From Pedobacter jejuensis (lineage in GTDB: Bacteria > Bacteroidota > Bacteroidia > Sphingobacteriales > Sphingobacteriaceae), in NCBI RefSeq assembly GCF_003725795.1, contig NZ_RBEE01000011.1, positions 124,001 through 188,000 of the forward strand: 64,000 bases of DNA. Direction: 5' to 3'. Positions 1 through 7,709 of the stretch are shown piece after piece. The position numbers and the translations under genes are program-made. How positions within the stretch are numbered: position 1 is the first letter of the stretch; each line of letters begins with the position of its first letter. The notes beneath the pieces were generated by a model, which was not told where the DNA came from, made no database searches, and worked only from the letters and a program-made list of their open reading frames with translations.

Positions 1-249
1 GCAGGGTTAATTAAAGGATATTATAAACCAAGATGGGAAATGTTCTTTCAAACCGTAGAGCAATCGTTTAAAACAGGAACAACAGTTGATTTAAAAGCAT
101 TTGATAAAAATGTAAAAAACTGGGAATGGAAATGGGTTAATCTGCATGACAATGCCTATTCTGACAAAATCAAAGGCAATTCGTTTGTAGTTGTTGCAAA
201 ACTTTACGCCAAATATAACGATACGATAAAAGCAGCGTATGCGAAATAA
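1..249 (+). CDS. Alpha-N-acetylglucosaminidase (GH89, NAGLU-like), 3' end only
   Basis: Only the last 82 residues lie in the window; the reading frame is open from base 1. The segment AGLIKGYYKPRWEMFF and the following helix-rich tail match the C-terminal domain of NAGLU-type enzymes, where human NAGLU has a similar YYTPRW segment. The family removes terminal alpha-linked N-acetylglucosamine from glycans. The catalytic domain lies upstream and cannot be judged. It is followed at once by a GH35 gene, so it is probably part of a glycan-degradation operon. Family assignment is from recall of the motif, not from a search. Confidence 0.8.
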   Translation, partial: AGLIKGYYKPRWEMFFQTVEQSFKTGTTVDLKAFDKNVKNWEWKWVNLHDNAYSDKIKGNSFVVVAKLYAKYNDTIKAAYAK

Positions 250-280
250 AAATTGCGTTAGGCCACTCCGTACTTATTAT

Positions 281-3241
281 ATGATGAAATGCGGTAGATC
301 TTTACTTTTGCTGCTGCTTGGCCTTTCTGCATTTATGTTTACCAATGCTCAGGAAGTTGTAAATGATCATATGTTTCACGAACTTCCTGAAGCAAAAAAC
401 TATAGTGATTTTGACAGTAAAGGCTTTTTAATCAACCGGAAAAGGACCTTTATTGTTTCGGCTGGGATGGAATATGCCCGGGTGCCACATCAGTTGTGGA
501 GGGAGCGTTTGCTACAACTTAAACGCGGTGGCTTTAATTGTATTGAGATTTATACCATCTGGAATTATCATGAACCTTTAGAAGGGAAATTTGAGTTTGA
601 TGGAGACAAGAACTTGGATCAGTTTCTGGCGTTAATTAAAGAATTAGGCCTTTATTCTATTGTGCGTGTCGGTCCTTACTATTGTGCAGAATGGGATCAG
701 GGTGGATATCCTACCTGGCTTCGATTTAAACCTGGTTTGCGGGTGAGAGAAGATAATGCAGAATTTAAAAAATACGTAGATCGTTTCTTTGATCGGCTGC
801 TACCTATTGTAATGAAACACCAGATTACAAAAGGTGGTTCCGTGATTTTGATACAACTGGAAAATGAACATCCAAAAGGCTGGGGAACAGATATGCCTAA
901 TGATTACTTTAAACACCTGCAAAGCAAATCGCTGGCTATGGGGATGGAAATTCCTTACTTTTTTAGCGGCTTACACCATGCTACTGATCCTGCAGGAAAG
1001 GGAAAACTGGATGATCCAAAAAGACCAAACCCTTGGTTTTCTACAGAATTTTGGAGCGTTTGGTATTCACAGTATGGTGCAAAACCAACAGATGCACCCC
1101 TTTACGATCGCCGAACCTGGAAAATCATTGCACATGGCGGCAACGGCTATAACTTTTATATGGCCCATGGTGGCTCTAACTTTGGATACACCAATAATGA
1201 TGAAGATGCAGCCTCATACGATTATGGCGCTGCGGTTGGACAGGCAGGAGATTTGCGTCCGCTTTATTTTACTTTTAAACGTGCGGGCTATTTTGCACGC
1301 AGTTTCCAGGAAATTTTGGAAAACAGTACCGATGCATCTGCAGCTTATCAATACTTAACAAATGATACTTCACTCCATATTAATGCAAGGAAGAGCGATG
1401 CCGGAACACTGATCTTTCTTGATAATCCGGCGGAAAAACAGTTAACCAAAACGATTACTGTTAAAGGTTTGCCATCTTTTACTATTAACTTATTGCCCGG
1501 CGAATTATATCCAATTGTACATCAGTTTAAATTAAATGATAAAGTAGAATTGAATTGGGGATTGTCAAGGATATTCGGTGTTGTTAAACAGCAAAATACA
1601 ACAACTATTTTGGTAGAAGCAAATGCTGGTGATCCAATCTATCTGAATCTTATTACGACTGTAAAAGCAATTGTAAGATCAACCGTTAACTCTGGCGATT
1701 TGAAAGTAAGCGGCAAAAACGTAACTTTAAATACGGTGTTTACACCATCGGAACAATCTTCCCTTTATCTTTTTAAAGCAGGCGATCAACTAATTCGGAT
1801 TGTGGTATTGGATAAAGCAGCTACCAATAAAACATGGATCACATCCGAAACAGGAAAAGAAGCGATAGTGACAGGTGTTTCCTATCTTGGTGAAGCGAAG
1901 TTAAGTAGCACAAGCTTTCAAGCAGCGGCAAGCTATCCATTAACAGGCGCAAAAGATACCCAGGCAATGCTTTACCTCGAAGACGGATTAAAAAAAATGA
2001 CTGTTTTACCGATTGAGGATATTAAAACAGATTCGCTACTTCATTTAACGCCCTGGGAAAACAAGGATGCAGCAATTTTTTCTTCATCTAAAATACAAAA
2101 CGGAAAATGGTTAGCTAGTGAAAATCCATTACAGATGGGTATGGATGGAAACCTGACCAATTCTGCCTGGTACCGCACAAAATTTAATGCACCTTCAGCG
2201 GGAAAATATACCTTACAGTCTGAAGGTGGCGACCGAGCAACGGTGTTTGTAGACGGAAAGCTGGTAACCAATTGGAAGATCAGAAACGGCGAGCTTACCC
2301 TCGTCCTGGAAAAGGGCATGCACAACCTTGCCTTTTTTACCGCCCATGATGGCCGTGATAAACTCGCAGCTTACCTTGGTCCGATTACGGAAATAGACAA
2401 AAAAGGGCTTTCTGGTGTTACCCGCATCAAAAAAGGAGGGCCATTTATTTCTACGCTTGATAAATGGTATTTCACCGCCGCGGCAGATTCCATGGCCATT
2501 AAAAGTGGTCCGCCATTACTCGATACGATTAAAACGCCACAATATAAAATTGGTGCTGATGCGTTTGGCCTTAAAGCGGGCTATGGCTGGTTTCAAACCA
2601 TTATCAAAGCCCAACCAGGCCTGCCGAGCCTAACCATCAGTTTTAAAAGTACGGATGAAAACGCAACCCTGTTTATTAATGGCAAAAAAGTATTAAGACA
2701 CGAAGGATGGAATATTCCTTTTGAGTATAAAATTACAGATGCAGCTATTTTAGCGCATCCGATTGAACTTTCTGTTTTTATAGAAAACCTAAGTAACGAG
2801 GGCGGCATCGACCAGCCTGTAAAAATAAACACGATGGCAGGTGGAACTGTTTTAAATGGCTGGAACATGAAAAATGGTGTAGATCCTGAAGACGCTACCG
2901 TAGAATGGAAAAATCTGATGAACACCGACTCATTAAATGGTCCACAATGGTATCGTTCCACTTTCAACCAGCAAAAAATAGCCAATAGGAAATTGGTGTG
3001 GAGGGTTCATCCTTATGGTTTGGGTCATGGTTCGGTTTGGATTAACGGGCATAACTTGGGGCGATATCCAGAAAAAATTGGCGATGTAGGCATGTATATT
3101 CCGGAACCCTGGTTAAAAGAAGGCTTGAATGAAATCGTTATTTATGATGAAGACGGTAAAACCCCCGGCAGAGTGAAGATAATGATGGAAACCGCATCCA
3201 GCAAAATCACTTATAACCTAAAAACAGAAGACATTAAATAA
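281..3241 (+). CDS. Beta-galactosidase, glycoside hydrolase family 35, secreted
   Basis: GH35 TIM barrel followed by beta-sandwich domains. An early segment IYTIWNYHEP is family-typical. The acid/base is expected at Glu-196 in LIQLENEHP and the nucleophile at Glu-256 in STEFWSVW (numbering from 281). The C-terminal part (WINGHNLGRY, then LKEGLNEIVIYD) is a galactose-binding-like sandwich common in GH35. The protein is about 986 residues, longer than the usual ~600, because of extra sandwich domains between residues 400 and 900. An in-frame ATG at 239 overlaps the GH89 gene, but ATG 281 gives a clean signal peptide (hydrophobic run SLLLLLLGLSAFMF ending at TNAQ), so I prefer it. Probably periplasmic or surface-exposed and co-transcribed with the flanking genes. 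Confidence 0.9.
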   Translation: MMKCGRSLLLLLLGLSAFMFTNAQEVVNDHMFHELPEAKNYSDFDSKGFLINRKRTFIVSAGMEYARVPHQLWRERLLQLKRGGFNCIEIYTIWNYHEPLEGKFEFDGDKNLDQFLALIKELGLYSIVRVGPYYCAEWDQGGYPTWLRFKPGLRVREDNAEFKKYVDRFFDRLLPIVMKHQITKGGSVILIQLENEHPKGWGTDMPNDYFKHLQSKSLAMGMEIPYFFSGLHHATDPAGKGKLDDPKRPNPWFSTEFWSVWYSQYGAKPTDAPLYDRRTWKIIAHGGNGYNFYMAHGGSNFGYTNNDEDAASYDYGAAVGQAGDLRPLYFTFKRAGYFARSFQEILENSTDASAAYQYLTNDTSLHINARKSDAGTLIFLDNPAEKQLTKTITVKGLPSFTINLLPGELYPIVHQFKLNDKVELNWGLSRIFGVVKQQNTTTILVEANAGDPIYLNLITTVKAIVRSTVNSGDLKVSGKNVTLNTVFTPSEQSSLYLFKAGDQLIRIVVLDKAATNKTWITSETGKEAIVTGVSYLGEAKLSSTSFQAAASYPLTGAKDTQAMLYLEDGLKKMTVLPIEDIKTDSLLHLTPWENKDAAIFSSSKIQNGKWLASENPLQMGMDGNLTNSAWYRTKFNAPSAGKYTLQSEGGDRATVFVDGKLVTNWKIRNGELTLVLEKGMHNLAFFTAHDGRDKLAAYLGPITEIDKKGLSGVTRIKKGGPFISTLDKWYFTAAADSMAIKSGPPLLDTIKTPQYKIGADAFGLKAGYGWFQTIIKAQPGLPSLTISFKSTDENATLFINGKKVLRHEGWNIPFEYKITDAAILAHPIELSVFIENLSNEGGIDQPVKINTMAGGTVLNGWNMKNGVDPEDATVEWKNLMNTDSLNGPQWYRSTFNQQKIANRKLVWRVHPYGLGHGSVWINGHNLGRYPEKIGDVGMYIPEPWLKEGLNEIVIYDEDGKTPGRVKIMMETASSKITYNLKTEDIK

Positions 3242-3278
3242 CAGCATATTTCCAACAAAACACATCAATAATACCATT

Positions 3279-4406
3279 ATGGAATTATCAAACAATAGAT
3301 TTACCACACTCGATATATTCAGGGGAATGACCATCTGTTTCATGATTATTGTAAATTCTCCTGGGTCTGGTGCGGTGGTATGGTCACCTTTGGATCATGC
3401 GGCCTGGTTTGGATTTACACCCACAGATCTCGTTTTTCCATCTTTTCTATTCGCAGTGGGTAATGCATTAAGTTTCTCTAAGAAAAAGATTGAAAGCAAT
3501 TCTGCTTTTTTAGCCAAGATATTTAAGCGTACGCTCATCATCTTTTTGCTGGGCTACCTGATGTATTGGTTTCCATTTATGCATCGTGATCATGATACCT
3601 GGGTATTCAATGCCTTAGCCAATACCCGTATTATGGGCGTGCTGCAACGAATTGCTTTGTGTTATTTTTTTGGTTCCTTAATTGTACATTATTGCTCAAA
3701 AAAAACGGCGATAATCATTTCTATACTATTACTGCTGCTCTATTGGGCGTTTTTGCTGCTGTTCGGGGCAACAGGAGAAGAGTACAGCATGTTGGGTAAT
3801 GCAGGCACCAAGCTTGATATTCTCATCCTCGGCGATGCCCATTTATACCACGATCATGGCGGGCCGATAGCTTTCGATCCGGAAGGATTATTGAGTACAA
3901 TTACTGGTATTGTTAACGTTATTGCCGGCTATCTGGCAGGCGTTTACATTCAACGAAAGGGAAAAAATTTTGAGTGTATAGCCAAACTATTGATGATGGG
4001 TGCATTACTGATTGGATTGGCCTTATTCTGGGGACAATTTTTTCCGATTGCTAAAAAACTATGGACCAGCTCTTTTGTGTTACTTACTATCGGACTGGAT
4101 TTAGTAATACTTGGTATATTGATTTATGCCATCGAACTCAAAAACATTAAATGGGGAACAAACTTTTTTTTAATTTTTGGGAGAAACTCTTTAGCCATTT
4201 ATCTTTTATCAGAGTTGCTGCTTGTAATTTTTCAACTGGTTCATGTTCAGCAAAGCCTCAGTTTCTATAACTGGATTAACAAAGTTTTTTACCAGGTGAT
4301 TTTTCCGGGTGCATTTGGTACCCTTGTATTTGCGGTGAGTTTTATGCTGCTCTGCTGGTTCGTGGGTTACCTAATGGATAAAAGAAAAATTTACATTAAA
4401 ATCTAA
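3279..4406 (+). CDS. HGSNAT/NagX-like membrane acyltransferase (DUF5009/COG4299 type)
   Basis: An integral membrane protein of 375 residues with about ten hydrophobic segments. The N-terminus TLDIFRGMTICFMIIVN and the segment around residues 40-56 (HAAWFGFTPTDLVFPSF) are hallmarks of the family that includes human heparan-alpha-glucosaminide N-acetyltransferase and bacterial NagX. His-40 aligns with the conserved histidine of that motif, which I take as the likely acetyl-carrying residue. Known HGSNAT moves acetyl groups across a membrane onto terminal glucosamine; the substrate here is unproven. It lies 37 bp after the GH35 gene and 6 bp before the GH92 gene, which suggests one operon with the GH89 enzyme upstream. 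Confidence 0.8.
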   Translation: MELSNNRFTTLDIFRGMTICFMIIVNSPGSGAVVWSPLDHAAWFGFTPTDLVFPSFLFAVGNALSFSKKKIESNSAFLAKIFKRTLIIFLLGYLMYWFPFMHRDHDTWVFNALANTRIMGVLQRIALCYFFGSLIVHYCSKKTAIIISILLLLLYWAFLLLFGATGEEYSMLGNAGTKLDILILGDAHLYHDHGGPIAFDPEGLLSTITGIVNVIAGYLAGVYIQRKGKNFECIAKLLMMGALLIGLALFWGQFFPIAKKLWTSSFVLLTIGLDLVILGILIYAIELKNIKWGTNFFLIFGRNSLAIYLLSELLLVIFQLVHVQQSLSFYNWINKVFYQVIFPGAFGTLVFAVSFMLLCWFVGYLMDKRKIYIKI

Positions 4407-4412
4407 TCCCGG

Positions 4413-7400
4413 ATGTTTGCTAAATTCTGCCTTTTATTCTGCACAATACTATCGCTGCTTTTTTTGTCCCTGTCCGTATATAGCCAAAGGCAATATACTC
4501 AGTCAAAAGCAAATTCGATTTATGTTGACCCTTTTATTGGCACAACGAAAAGCAATGTATTAACCAGCTGGGGAGGTAATGGCGGCACGTATCCGGGTGC
4601 CGTTGCGCCTTCAGGAAATATTCAGTTAACACCAGAAACGCGGGTTACCGGAGCAAAGGGCTATGATTACAGCGATCAACAGATTTTCTTTTTCAGCTGC
4701 TTTAAACACTTCAGCGGTTTCCCGGAAGGATCTTCCGGGCAGGTATTCATCCTCCCGGTGGAGAAAGGTAAAAACTTTGAACCAGGAAAATATAACCGCC
4801 CATTTAGTCATACGCAGGAAGAGGCAACACCTGGCTATTATAAAGTGGTATTTACCGATAATAACACCATAGCTGAAGCTGCAGCAAGTACCCGAACCGG
4901 GATTTTAAAATTTACTTTTCCTGCAAAGGTAGCGCCGCAGATATACATTGGGGAAGCCGGGGATATTAGCTTAAAGAGCAAACGTGTGGTTCATGGATCT
5001 TTGGGGAATACAACGATTAACCTATCATCCAACATCACTGAATCCGATGTCGTTAAGGGCGGATATTTATTAAGCTTTGAAAAATCAGATACTTCAGCGC
5101 AAATAATCACGCTTAAAATCAGTTCTTCTTCTGTAAGTTTTGAAGGTGCACAACAGAACATCGAAACAGAAATTGGCCAAATTGACTTTGAGGCTTTCCG
5201 GGAAAGGACAGCTAAGGAATGGGATACCCAATTGGCTACCGTCGATATAAAAGACCCATCAACTGCAAATAAAAAGGTTTTTTACACCGCACTTTACCAC
5301 TCATTGCTCATTCCATGGGTTATTTCTGATGTAGATGGGAAATACAAGGGAGCCGACGGTAAGACCTACCAAACGAAAAGAAAAAATCAATATGGAGGTT
5401 TTTCACCATGGGATACTTTTCGCTCTTTACATCCTTTGCTTACTTTACTTTATCCCGAAAAGCAAAATGATGTAATTCTTTCGATGCTTGATGTATATGA
5501 GCAAAGCGGATATTTGCCAACAGAAACCATGACTGGAAACCATGCTGTACCAATTATTGTGGATGCCTACTTAAAAGGGATTACCGGCTATGATAAAAAC
5601 CTTGCTTATAAAGCGATGAAAAATAGCATTGTAGATGGGCCATTCAGTAAAAATGATATGGAGATATACCATCAGCTGGGTTATGTGCCATTTTCCAAGT
5701 CAGAATCGGTAACCAGAACCATGGAGTATGCTTATGATGACTGGGCACTGTTGCAATTCGCAAAACTGGTCATGAAGAACAAGCCAGATCAGCAATTGCT
5801 GGAAACACGCGGATTAAATTACCGGAACATTTTTCATCCTTCAGATCTGTTTATGTTGCCAAGATTAGGCATTCAATTTAAGTTAAATCCTGGAATGACA
5901 GGCTATAAGGAAGGGAATAAATGGGTATATACCTATTTTGTTCCCCATAATGCGAAAGATCTTATCAATCTACTCGGTGGTCCACAAGTTTTTTCAAACC
6001 GTTTAGATTCTGCGATGGCTAACAACGTTATTCTGTACGATAATGAAACCGTTCTTCATTTGCCTTACCTTTTTAATGCAGCCGGGCGGCCTACACTCAC
6101 ACAGCAATGGCTAAGAAACATTATGCTCAACCGTTTCTCTGCAACGCCAGGCGGCCTGCCAGGAAACGATGACCTTGGATCTATGTCGAGCGCCTATATT
6201 TTTAATGCCATTGGGCTCTTTCCAATCAGCCCTGGAAACCCATTGTATGCTATTGGCGCACCCTTATTTGAATCCGTTACGCTCCACTTGTTCAATAAAA
6301 AAGATCTGGAAATTCATGCGGAAAACCAGTCTGCTAAAAATAAATATATTCATGCTTTATCTATCAATAACCACTCATACAATCAACTGGATATTTCACA
6401 TGAAATGCTAATGAAAGGCGGTCGGTTAAACTTTGTGATGAGTCCAGATGTTAAGCAAGCTTGGCCAACAGACAGAGACCCGATTTCGCTTTCAGCAACG
6501 AAAATAAATGCCAATATTAAACTTCTACACTCCAGCATCAGCAGTAAACGAGTAAGGCCTGATGAAGCATTTCAGATAAAATTCACCTTAAAAAATGAAG
6601 GAAGCCTTGGAACCAAACGCATCATTGTTTATGCTGATGGAAAACCATGGTTATCTAAATTTTGTCTTGTACCGCAGGGCCTTACCATAACTGACTCCAT
6701 AAGTGGTCGATTATACAAATTGGGAAAAGTAAAAATCGGTACGAACACATCAACAGCTACGGTGATTAATGTGATTAACCCTGTAAAGCATGTTGAACAG
6801 CCTTTCCTAATCTCGGGTTTGAATGTTAAACCCATTTTAAAACTAAACACGCAGCAGGAAATTACCTACCGGATAAAAAATATTACAGGAACTGCCCAAA
6901 CCTTTAAGCCGAATGTAATCCTTTCGAGGGATTCGAATAATAAGAAAATACTTCTTTATACGGATCAGGTGTACCTATTGCCAGGTCAGCAAAAAACCAT
7001 AAATCATCGATTTACTGTGAATCGAACCGGCCTGCAAACCATCAAAACCGGAAATATGCAAGCAATATTCAAAGTTTACGACACACCTTCAACAGCTTTG
7101 TTGCTAAATCTGGAGTTTGAGAATCTAAAAAACAATCAAGTTGTAGATCAATCTGGGTTTAAAAATAATGCATTGCTGATTAGCGGCGCAAATGATTCTA
7201 AAAAATATAATACTGAAATAGGAGATAGTACTTATCTGGAAATTCCAAATGCGCCTAGTTTAGATCAGATAGGAAATAGCCTCAGTATGATGGCTTGGGT
7301 TTATCCTACCGGAGAGGAAAAAGGGTTGACTGACATTATCACAAAAGGCGATAGCCATGTCATTCAAACAACTGATAATAAAACTTTAACATTCTTTGCA

Positions 7401-7709
7401 GGTGGCTGGGGAAGAGGCGATTGTACAGTGAAATTGCCTGCCAACTGGAAAAATAACTGGCATCATATTGCTGGCGTTTGTGAAGGCGATTTATTAAGCA
7501 TTTACCTGGATGGAAAATTAGCGGGAAGTACAAAAGTTGATGGCGTCAGCAACCTTTCTAACACCAGCAGATGGCAAATTGGCCGCAATGAAGAGTTTCC
7601 CTCAGAAAGAATCTTTCACGGGCAGATAGACCTAATTAAAATTTACGGAGAACCATTATTGGCAAAAGAAATTGAAGTGGTATTTCAAAAGGAAAAAAGT
7701 AAGTATTAG
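4413..7709 (+). CDS. GH92 alpha-mannosidase with C-terminal LamG domain, secreted
   Basis: Signal peptide at residues 1-25 (ends SLSVYSQ). The GH92 body shows YVDPFIGT near the N-terminus, KHFSGFPEGSSG, GGFSPWDTFRS and GNDDLGSMSSAYIFNAIG at residues 584-601; the paired Asp of GNDD are the expected catalytic-base region of this calcium-dependent family. Residues ~690-890 look like Ig-type sandwich modules. Residues ~900-1090 look like a LamG/concanavalin-like domain (MMAWVYPTG, WHHIAGVCEG, IYLDGKLAGS). Typical GH92 is ~750 residues, so the tail is an accessory, possibly carbohydrate-binding extension. The family removes alpha-mannose from N-glycan-type structures. Last gene of the cluster. Confidence 0.9.
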   Translation: MFAKFCLLFCTILSLLFLSLSVYSQRQYTQSKANSIYVDPFIGTTKSNVLTSWGGNGGTYPGAVAPSGNIQLTPETRVTGAKGYDYSDQQIFFFSCFKHFSGFPEGSSGQVFILPVEKGKNFEPGKYNRPFSHTQEEATPGYYKVVFTDNNTIAEAAASTRTGILKFTFPAKVAPQIYIGEAGDISLKSKRVVHGSLGNTTINLSSNITESDVVKGGYLLSFEKSDTSAQIITLKISSSSVSFEGAQQNIETEIGQIDFEAFRERTAKEWDTQLATVDIKDPSTANKKVFYTALYHSLLIPWVISDVDGKYKGADGKTYQTKRKNQYGGFSPWDTFRSLHPLLTLLYPEKQNDVILSMLDVYEQSGYLPTETMTGNHAVPIIVDAYLKGITGYDKNLAYKAMKNSIVDGPFSKNDMEIYHQLGYVPFSKSESVTRTMEYAYDDWALLQFAKLVMKNKPDQQLLETRGLNYRNIFHPSDLFMLPRLGIQFKLNPGMTGYKEGNKWVYTYFVPHNAKDLINLLGGPQVFSNRLDSAMANNVILYDNETVLHLPYLFNAAGRPTLTQQWLRNIMLNRFSATPGGLPGNDDLGSMSSAYIFNAIGLFPISPGNPLYAIGAPLFESVTLHLFNKKDLEIHAENQSAKNKYIHALSINNHSYNQLDISHEMLMKGGRLNFVMSPDVKQAWPTDRDPISLSATKINANIKLLHSSISSKRVRPDEAFQIKFTLKNEGSLGTKRIIVYADGKPWLSKFCLVPQGLTITDSISGRLYKLGKVKIGTNTSTATVINVINPVKHVEQPFLISGLNVKPILKLNTQQEITYRIKNITGTAQTFKPNVILSRDSNNKKILLYTDQVYLLPGQQKTINHRFTVNRTGLQTIKTGNMQAIFKVYDTPSTALLLNLEFENLKNNQVVDQSGFKNNALLISGANDSKKYNTEIGDSTYLEIPNAPSLDQIGNSLSMMAWVYPTGEEKGLTDIITKGDSHVIQTTDNKTLTFFAGGWGRGDCTVKLPANWKNNWHHIAGVCEGDLLSIYLDGKLAGSTKVDGVSNLSNTSRWQIGRNEEFPSERIFHGQIDLIKIYGEPLLAKEIEVVFQKEKSKY

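Follow-up and report, generated by a model that had tools for sequence, protein, structure and literature searches.

We propose that a six-gene operon of the soil bacterium Pedobacter jejuensis is a polysaccharide utilization locus (PUL) for inositol-based glycans, namely the glycosylphosphatidylinositol (GPI) anchors and/or the glycosylinositol phosphorylceramides (GIPC) of plants, fungi or algae, and we assign to this reading a probability of roughly 0.55. The stretch of DNA that was analysed, here called the window, spans 64,000 nucleotides (C11:124001-188000, contig NZ_RBEE01000011.1 of assembly GCF_003725795.1, a genome of 4.8 Mb in 45 contigs), and its left edge cuts the operon. The genes run in the order susC-susD-GH89-GH35-HGSNAT/NagX-like-GH92, all on the + strand. 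Central to the proposal is the pairing of a GH89 alpha-N-acetylglucosaminidase with a membrane protein that resembles the human lysosomal acetyltransferase HGSNAT. The best reading of this gene pair is that a terminal glucosamine would be acetylated and then cleaved, an interpretation well supported by the anatomy of the loci, as genomics rather than as chemistry. Since the recurring extra gene of loci that carry the pair encodes myo-inositol oxygenase (MIOX), inositol-linked glycans are suggested as the substrate.

Recurrent pairing of GH89 with the acetyltransferase

The original prediction had raised the question of whether HGSNAT-like genes adjoin GH89 more often than chance in Bacteroidota, and we find that they do. 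GH89 is present in 11 of 247 genomes of the class (18 genes) and the acetyltransferase in 32. An acetyltransferase lies within 5 kb of 7 of the 18 GH89 genes, against a mean of 0.08 under random placement, which never gave 7 in 200,000 trials (genome sizes and gene counts were entered by hand and fragments merged by eye); a chance neighbourhood is thereby rejected. At two further GH89 genes of the class (G101 and G065) the acetyltransferase is ~22 and ~31 kb away within one long co-directional cluster. Across 151 genomes of the family, where manual merging reduced 58 GH89 rows to 56 genes and the counts are lower bounds, an acetyltransferase is found within 7 kb of at least 21 of the 56 and within 10 kb of at least 24. 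A scan of public genomes with a GH89 alignment confirmed at least 592 stretches, and the best 80 loci, nearest to the window's GH89, were analysed. The acetyltransferase is present in 31 of these (paired loci), within two genes of GH89 in 30. Paired loci include Sphingobacteriaceae, Chitinophagaceae, Flavobacteriaceae, Prolixibacteraceae, Spirosomataceae and one Opitutaceae metagenome-assembled genome (MAG), and 15 of the 16 non-Bacteroidota loci among the 80 are without the acetyltransferase. The leftover proteins of paired operons are mostly regulators (FecR, extracytoplasmic function (ECF) sigma factors and hybrid two-component systems (HTCS)) among the matches listed, 25 of 38 families.

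Could common descent alone explain the neighbourhood, without any joint function? Many of the best 80 loci come from related species. However, on a tree of 62 acetyltransferases the GH89-linked label changes 6 times, at least 5 of them forced by well-supported branches, compared with a mean of 18.3 after shuffling; with L013, a long-branched DUF5009 row omitted from this tree, counted as linked, there are 7 changes and at least 6 forced. Linkage to GH89 therefore appears to have been gained or lost repeatedly. This repetition, the two acetyltransferase types that stand beside GH89 in one genome, and a paired locus in Verrucomicrobiota (L109) all argue against ancestry as the sole cause, and we give that explanation hardly any credence. 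The acetyltransferase does not look like a generic PUL gene either: in 20 regions around GH89-unlinked acetyltransferases (stretches of 11-20 kb, picked from the listed unlinked matches of the class), none carries a GH89, MIOX, GH28 or GH92 label, and susC/susD occur in two (L129 and L130).

Other arrangements of GH89 were also seen. Eight loci of gut-type Bacteroidales (L069-L072, L074-L076, L078) combine susCD with tandem GH89 genes, most of them with a glycerate kinase and an Exo_endo_phos-type protein, and L070 at least has a GntP-type permease; in the similar L085 a single GH89 gene is followed by the acetyltransferase. L041 has four successive genes, for an alpha-L-fucosidase, GH89, the acetyltransferase and an alkaline phosphatase that includes a GDPD-type stretch.

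Inositol genes in the paired loci

MIOX is found in 12 of the 31 paired loci and in none of the 49 unpaired ones (p=2.3e-6; p-values on the 80 loci ignore kinship and, many loci being close kin, overstate independence, which tells against the proposal). Also more frequent in paired than in unpaired loci are GH92 (19/31 versus 3/49), GH28 (11/31 versus 1/49), a small metallophosphoesterase (7/31 versus 1/49), an SSF symporter (9/31 versus 1/49), GH35 (8/31 versus 1/49) and susC (25/31 versus 20/49), whereas the Exo_endo_phos type is rarer (1/31 versus 9/49). Among the genomes of the class, MIOX (E<1e-50) is present in 7 of the 11 that bear GH89 and in 12 of the 236 others. In the family genomes MIOX is at most 25 kb away from 15 GH89 genes; an acetyltransferase is found within 6 kb of 14 of these, and the fifteenth (G364) belongs to a different-looking cluster. 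GH28 accompanies MIOX and GH89 in 7 of the 12 loci that hold both.

Individual loci illustrate the association. A Mucilaginibacter MAG (L038) carries susC-susD-MIOX-GH89-GH35-acetyltransferase-GH92, which is the window operon with MIOX inside it. In G328 (L148, L149) a window-type operon, a LacI-type gene, GH28, MIOX and an operon like that on contig C2 of P. jejuensis lie side by side. In L049 the successive genes are GH89, the acetyltransferase, a phosphatidylinositol-specific phospholipase C (PI-PLC-C1, 3e-129), GH115 and a metallophosphoesterase, and the order of labels is the same in L052 and L080. The C2 operon is a separate PUL that contains the only other GH89 gene of the P. jejuensis genome, in the order LacI-type regulator (by eye), MIOX, susC, susD, metallophosphoesterase, HGSNAT/NagX-like gene, GH89, GH28, GH92. 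Its HGSNAT/NagX-like protein is 30% identical to that of the window and belongs to a different subfamily. The MIOX match is strong (1.3e-107), residues 34-293 of 295 align with a solved inositol oxygenase, and the residues that we take to be the iron ligands are present. For the C2 GH28 the nearest model is a rhamnogalacturonidase, below cut-off.

Several observations weigh against an inositol-linked substrate. Genes for MIOX, a uronidase or a phospholipase are absent from the window locus. Among 8 scanned loci of the window's acetyltransferase clade, MIOX occurs in L038 only, and in 19 of the 31 paired loci it is not within the examined stretch, some stretches being short. Neither GH28 nor GH115, the family of alpha-1,2-glucuronidases, is found in 5 of the 12 loci with MIOX and GH89. 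GH115 is not enriched in paired loci (3/31 versus 3/49), and PI-PLC, GH2 and a large metallophosphoesterase, each in 3/31 paired and 0/49 unpaired loci, do not reach significance (p=0.055). Because only 2 of 15 MIOX regions without GH89 hold GH92 or GH28 and 10 of the 15 (L131-L145) hold an SSF symporter, MIOX serves inositol in other settings too; by itself it is no marker of glycans. The symporter and MIOX are perhaps a small inositol-uptake module. One further PUL, L140 (G301:C6:807801-827800), has GH28, GH92, MIOX, GH28 and susCD, with no GH89 or acetyltransferase in the stretch, a content that fits a mannose-type GIPC head without glucosamine. Because the window locus has no inositol gene, we can only infer its substrate, and an inositol-linked one, though likely, is less sure there than for MIOX-bearing kin.

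Heparan sulfate and other inositol-free polymers

The original prediction had likened the gene pair to heparan sulfate breakdown in human lysosomes and had asked about the genes upstream. There susC and susD were found, whereas the genome gave no match to heparinase II/III (PF07940; other lyase families were not searched) and a single match to sulfatase (PF00884) over cut-off, at a distance of ~186 kb from the second locus, not on the window's contig. With neither gene near either GH89 locus, the heparan sulfate analogy is not supported, and heparan or heparin was not adopted.

Acetylation and cleavage might instead act on a polymer without inositol, for instance a heparosan-like one or a polysaccharide of bacteria or plants that has lost part of its acetyl groups. 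One GH89 from Bacteroides is able to cleave GlcNAc-alpha1,4-GlcA (N-acetylglucosamine on glucuronic acid) and heparosan oligosaccharides (PMC8225759). MIOX is missing from most window-type loci, and one GH89 locus (G110) carries genes of polysaccharide lyase family 8 (PL8) and GH88-like genes. However, the PL8 locus has no acetyltransferase within the 20 kb examined, the lack of a heparinase II/III match and of a nearby sulfatase applies here as well, and this reading would not account for the MIOX and PI-PLC genes of paired loci. We regard an inositol-free polymer as quite improbable and retain the inositol-linked glycans.

The HGSNAT-like membrane protein

Both the sequence of the membrane protein (2e-21) and its predicted fold match human HGSNAT. 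The AlphaFold2 model of the protein, built from 17 sequences (predicted local distance difference test, pLDDT, 81), aligns with HGSNAT 8vli_B with a Z of 39.6 over 342 residues at a root mean square deviation of 2.6. The next match is GWT1 (Z 20.6, 14% identity), and the remaining rows do not exceed 6.0. GWT1/PIG-W acts on glucosamine (GlcN)-inositol lipids and acylates inositol in biosynthesis. The window protein is without the N-terminal luminal domain and aligns with residues 263-663 of human HGSNAT only. In the human enzyme (PMC11199644) the catalytic dyad consists of H297 and D307; the acetyl carbonyl is held by N286, and glucosamine is contacted by R372 and E499. In the sequence alignment these residues (H297/D307/N286/R372/E499) correspond to H40/D50/N26/R117/E202, counted by hand. 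The suspected equivalence of His-40 and the HGSNAT active histidine is thus borne out, by sequence rather than by the model, in which residues 29-40 have a pLDDT below 50.

All 40 GH89-linked relatives share H40, D50, R117 and E202. They are also kept in most of the 22 unlinked relatives (H 22/22, D 22/22, R 21/22, E 20/22), a point against a role tied to GH89; asparagine aligns at the N26 position in 17/40 linked and 15/22 unlinked relatives. The conserved residues fit catalysis on an amino sugar, yet they do not separate linked from unlinked proteins. The original idea of acetylation and cleavage in series is supported by the gene pair, the fold, the residues and the linkage, but the histidine and aspartate are no proof of the acceptor because unlinked relatives all keep them too. 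A genome of the same genus (G080) has an identical acetyltransferase.

The fold, the dyad and N26 fit the HGSNAT/YeiB group (TmAT superfamily), whereas the NCBIfam NagX model NF046061 gives 164.6 bits, far from its curated cut-off of 480 (the second-locus acetyltransferase scores 324.9 bits), and on this comparison we would place the window protein as a relative of NagX rather than a member. The sole Pfam match of the window protein is a sub-threshold Acyl_transf_3, and DUF5009 (PF16401) has no match up to E=1 for acetyltransferases P0001 or P0002.

NagX of Shewanella and others is an inner-membrane acetyltransferase family with a catalytic histidine, like the window protein, and it is the closest named family. 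Mutant fitness ties it to glucosamine use in five bacteria, and periplasmic acetylation of glucosamine is proposed (PMC9007349). The window protein might likewise acetylate free periplasmic glucosamine for uptake as GlcNAc, not in series with GH89, and that relatives in the NagX family, often found in chitin operons, serve free glucosamine counts against our proposal. A third acetyltransferase copy in the genome (L130, C43:259001-279000) adjoins a glucosamine-6-phosphate deaminase/PIG-L fusion and is perhaps an ordinary NagX. GH89, however, yields GlcNAc instead of glucosamine, and, unless GH35 has this activity, the operon contains no evident glucosaminidase. The recurrence of GH89 linkage in several acetyltransferase subfamilies, and the 20 unlinked regions with their near lack of PUL genes, also argue against a free-glucosamine role, which we judge unlikely.

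The protein could also be a sugar transporter that imports the released sugar, like TfMurT of Tannerella, a distant NagX homologue proposed to transport N-acetylmuramic acid (PMC9007349). The relatives in L128 and L129 have MurT-like settings, beside a kinase of the BadF type and a protein with a SIS domain that we interpret as MurK and MurQ, and their sister L017 is GH89-adjacent and comes from the same genome as L129. However, fold and active-site residues match HGSNAT, and the same paper argues against NagX as a transporter; we deem transport highly improbable, and acetylation of a glycan-bound glucosamine remains our preferred role for the protein.

Operon organization and glycosidases

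The predicted tight run of GH89, GH35, the HGSNAT/NagX-like gene and GH92 is real: all four genes are confirmed on the same strand (Table 1). From susC to GH92 the intergenic distances are 4, 5, -11, 37 and 6 bases, and the susC/susD pair within the operon is that of a Bacteroidota PUL. GH89, GH35 and GH92 have signal-peptide-like N-termini, as judged by eye.

Table 1. Genes of the operon at the left edge of the window
Gene or product	Position	Strand	Remarks
susC	C11:117389-120547	+	upstream of window; Pfam TonB plug/barrel
susD	C11:120552-122033	+	upstream of window; Pfam SusD_RagB
GH89 alpha-N-acetylglucosaminidase, 736 aa	C11:122039-124249; window 1..249 = last 82 codons + stop	+	NAGLU N, barrel and C domains match
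GH35 glycosidase, 1000 aa, probable beta-galactosidase	window 239..3241	+	PF01301 3e-72
HGSNAT/NagX-like transmembrane protein, 375 aa, probable N-acetyltransferase	window 3279..4406	+	sequence and fold match to HGSNAT
GH92 alpha-mannosidase, 1098 aa	window 4413..7709	+	PF07971 1.1e-137; C-terminal LamG-like domain PF13385 1e-19

The GH89 catalytic domain, which the original prediction expected upstream of the window edge, is present there. Residues 66-727 align with human NAGLU, and E304 and E435 fall on its two catalytic glutamates, which we take, in numbering and roles alike, to be E316 and E446 of the precursor. Both are invariant in 17 of 17 aligned GH89 sequences, and with the NAGLU domains they mark the protein as a GH89/NAGLU member. 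The best matches of GH35 among solved structures are beta-galactosidases. An exo-glucosaminidase, which would yield free glucosamine, is a less likely alternative that was not adopted: the match to the NCBIfam model for that activity spans residues 57-217 only and scores 108.7 bits, the cut-off being 1500. The best solved match of GH92 is 6f8z, an alpha-1,2-mannosidase.

The operon (C11:117389-131709) was probably acquired horizontally, because its six genes have 38.7-40.8% G+C as against 34.6% in the flanks (84001-104000 and 132000-154000) and the closest GH89 relatives found are from Mucilaginibacter, while the host genome is Pedobacter.

A model for the use of inositol glycans

What would acetylation before cleavage achieve? 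The plant GIPC core is GlcNAc-alpha1,4-GlcA-alpha1,2-inositol, the GPI core Man3-alpha1,4-GlcN-alpha1,6-inositol (Man, mannose) and one fungal core GlcN-alpha1,2-inositol (PMC6151786). GlcNAc-alpha1,4-GlcA is also what the Bacteroides GH89 cleaves (PMC8225759), in favour of the proposal. Tomato GIPC heads occur both acetylated and un-acetylated; for GlcN-GlcA-inositol-phosphate, ions are reported at m/z 596 and, once acetylated, at 638, with 435 probably being GlcA-inositol-phosphate (PMC11496612), and free glucosamine is reported on plant heads (PMC9113257). Since the glucosamine of GPI and GIPC heads can be un-acetylated, GH89 alone should fail. A 2020 review knows of a single plant GPI glycan, Man3-GlcN-inositol with beta-1,4-galactose on mannose (PMC7769824), and such a glycan of beta-galactose, alpha-mannose, glucosamine and inositol would employ all four window enzymes, GH35, GH92, the acetyltransferase and GH89.

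In the model SusC/SusD would carry the inositol-glycan head-group into the periplasm, where removal of beta-galactose by GH35 and of alpha-mannose by GH92 would expose a terminal alpha-glucosamine that bears no acetyl group. This residue would then be N-acetylated in the periplasm by the HGSNAT-like protein, which would draw on acetyl-CoA of the cytosol across the inner membrane, and be freed as GlcNAc by GH89. In sister loci GH28 or GH115 may take glucuronic acid off inositol, phosphatases or PI-PLC may release inositol from phosphate and lipid, and MIOX would convert inositol to glucuronate. Gene content, operon, fold, conserved residues and recurrent linkage are observed; from them we infer the order of the steps, acetylation of a glycan-bound amine and, most tentatively for the window locus, the substrate.

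Relation to known systems and significance

The closest known counterpart is the human lysosomal pair HGSNAT and NAGLU, which acts on heparan sulfate and is associated with Sanfilippo C and B, respectively. The two families, the fold and the active-site residues are the same, and so is the proposed order, acetylation before removal of alpha-GlcNAc. The window system differs in being a bacterial operon with SusC/SusD, in having no luminal domain (375 versus 663 aa) and no sulfatase or heparinase II/III nearby, and in a probable substrate that contains inositol. One probable substrate class is also attacked by a Botrytis GIPC phospholipase C, which cuts off the lipid and frees inositol-phosphate-glycan heads; in the excerpt available, glycan catabolism is not described for it. 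According to a 2025 paper (PMC12423673), the function of none of the DUF5009 proteins has been confirmed. In the open-licence literature we found no paper that joins GH89 with DUF5009 or myo-inositol oxygenase with polysaccharide utilization and, in titles and abstract openings among the matches listed, no description of a bacterial route for GIPC or GPI glycan heads.

GIPC are major lipids of the plant plasma membrane and the predominant plant glycosphingolipids, and GPI anchors occur throughout eukaryotes. We consider it an even bet that Bacteroidota own dedicated loci for eating the glycan heads of both, in which an HGSNAT-NAGLU relay would acetylate and remove the glucosamine adjacent to inositol or glucuronate and the core would be burnt by inositol oxygenase. 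If this is true, it would constitute a bacterial counterpart of the lysosomal pathway, directed at these predominant glycosphingolipids of plants, name a substrate for HGSNAT-like subfamilies and explain the presence of inositol oxygenase in such loci. Enzymes for the analysis of inositol glycans would also be gained, and the acetylate-then-cleave logic of human mucopolysaccharidosis (MPS) III would become testable in simple bacteria.

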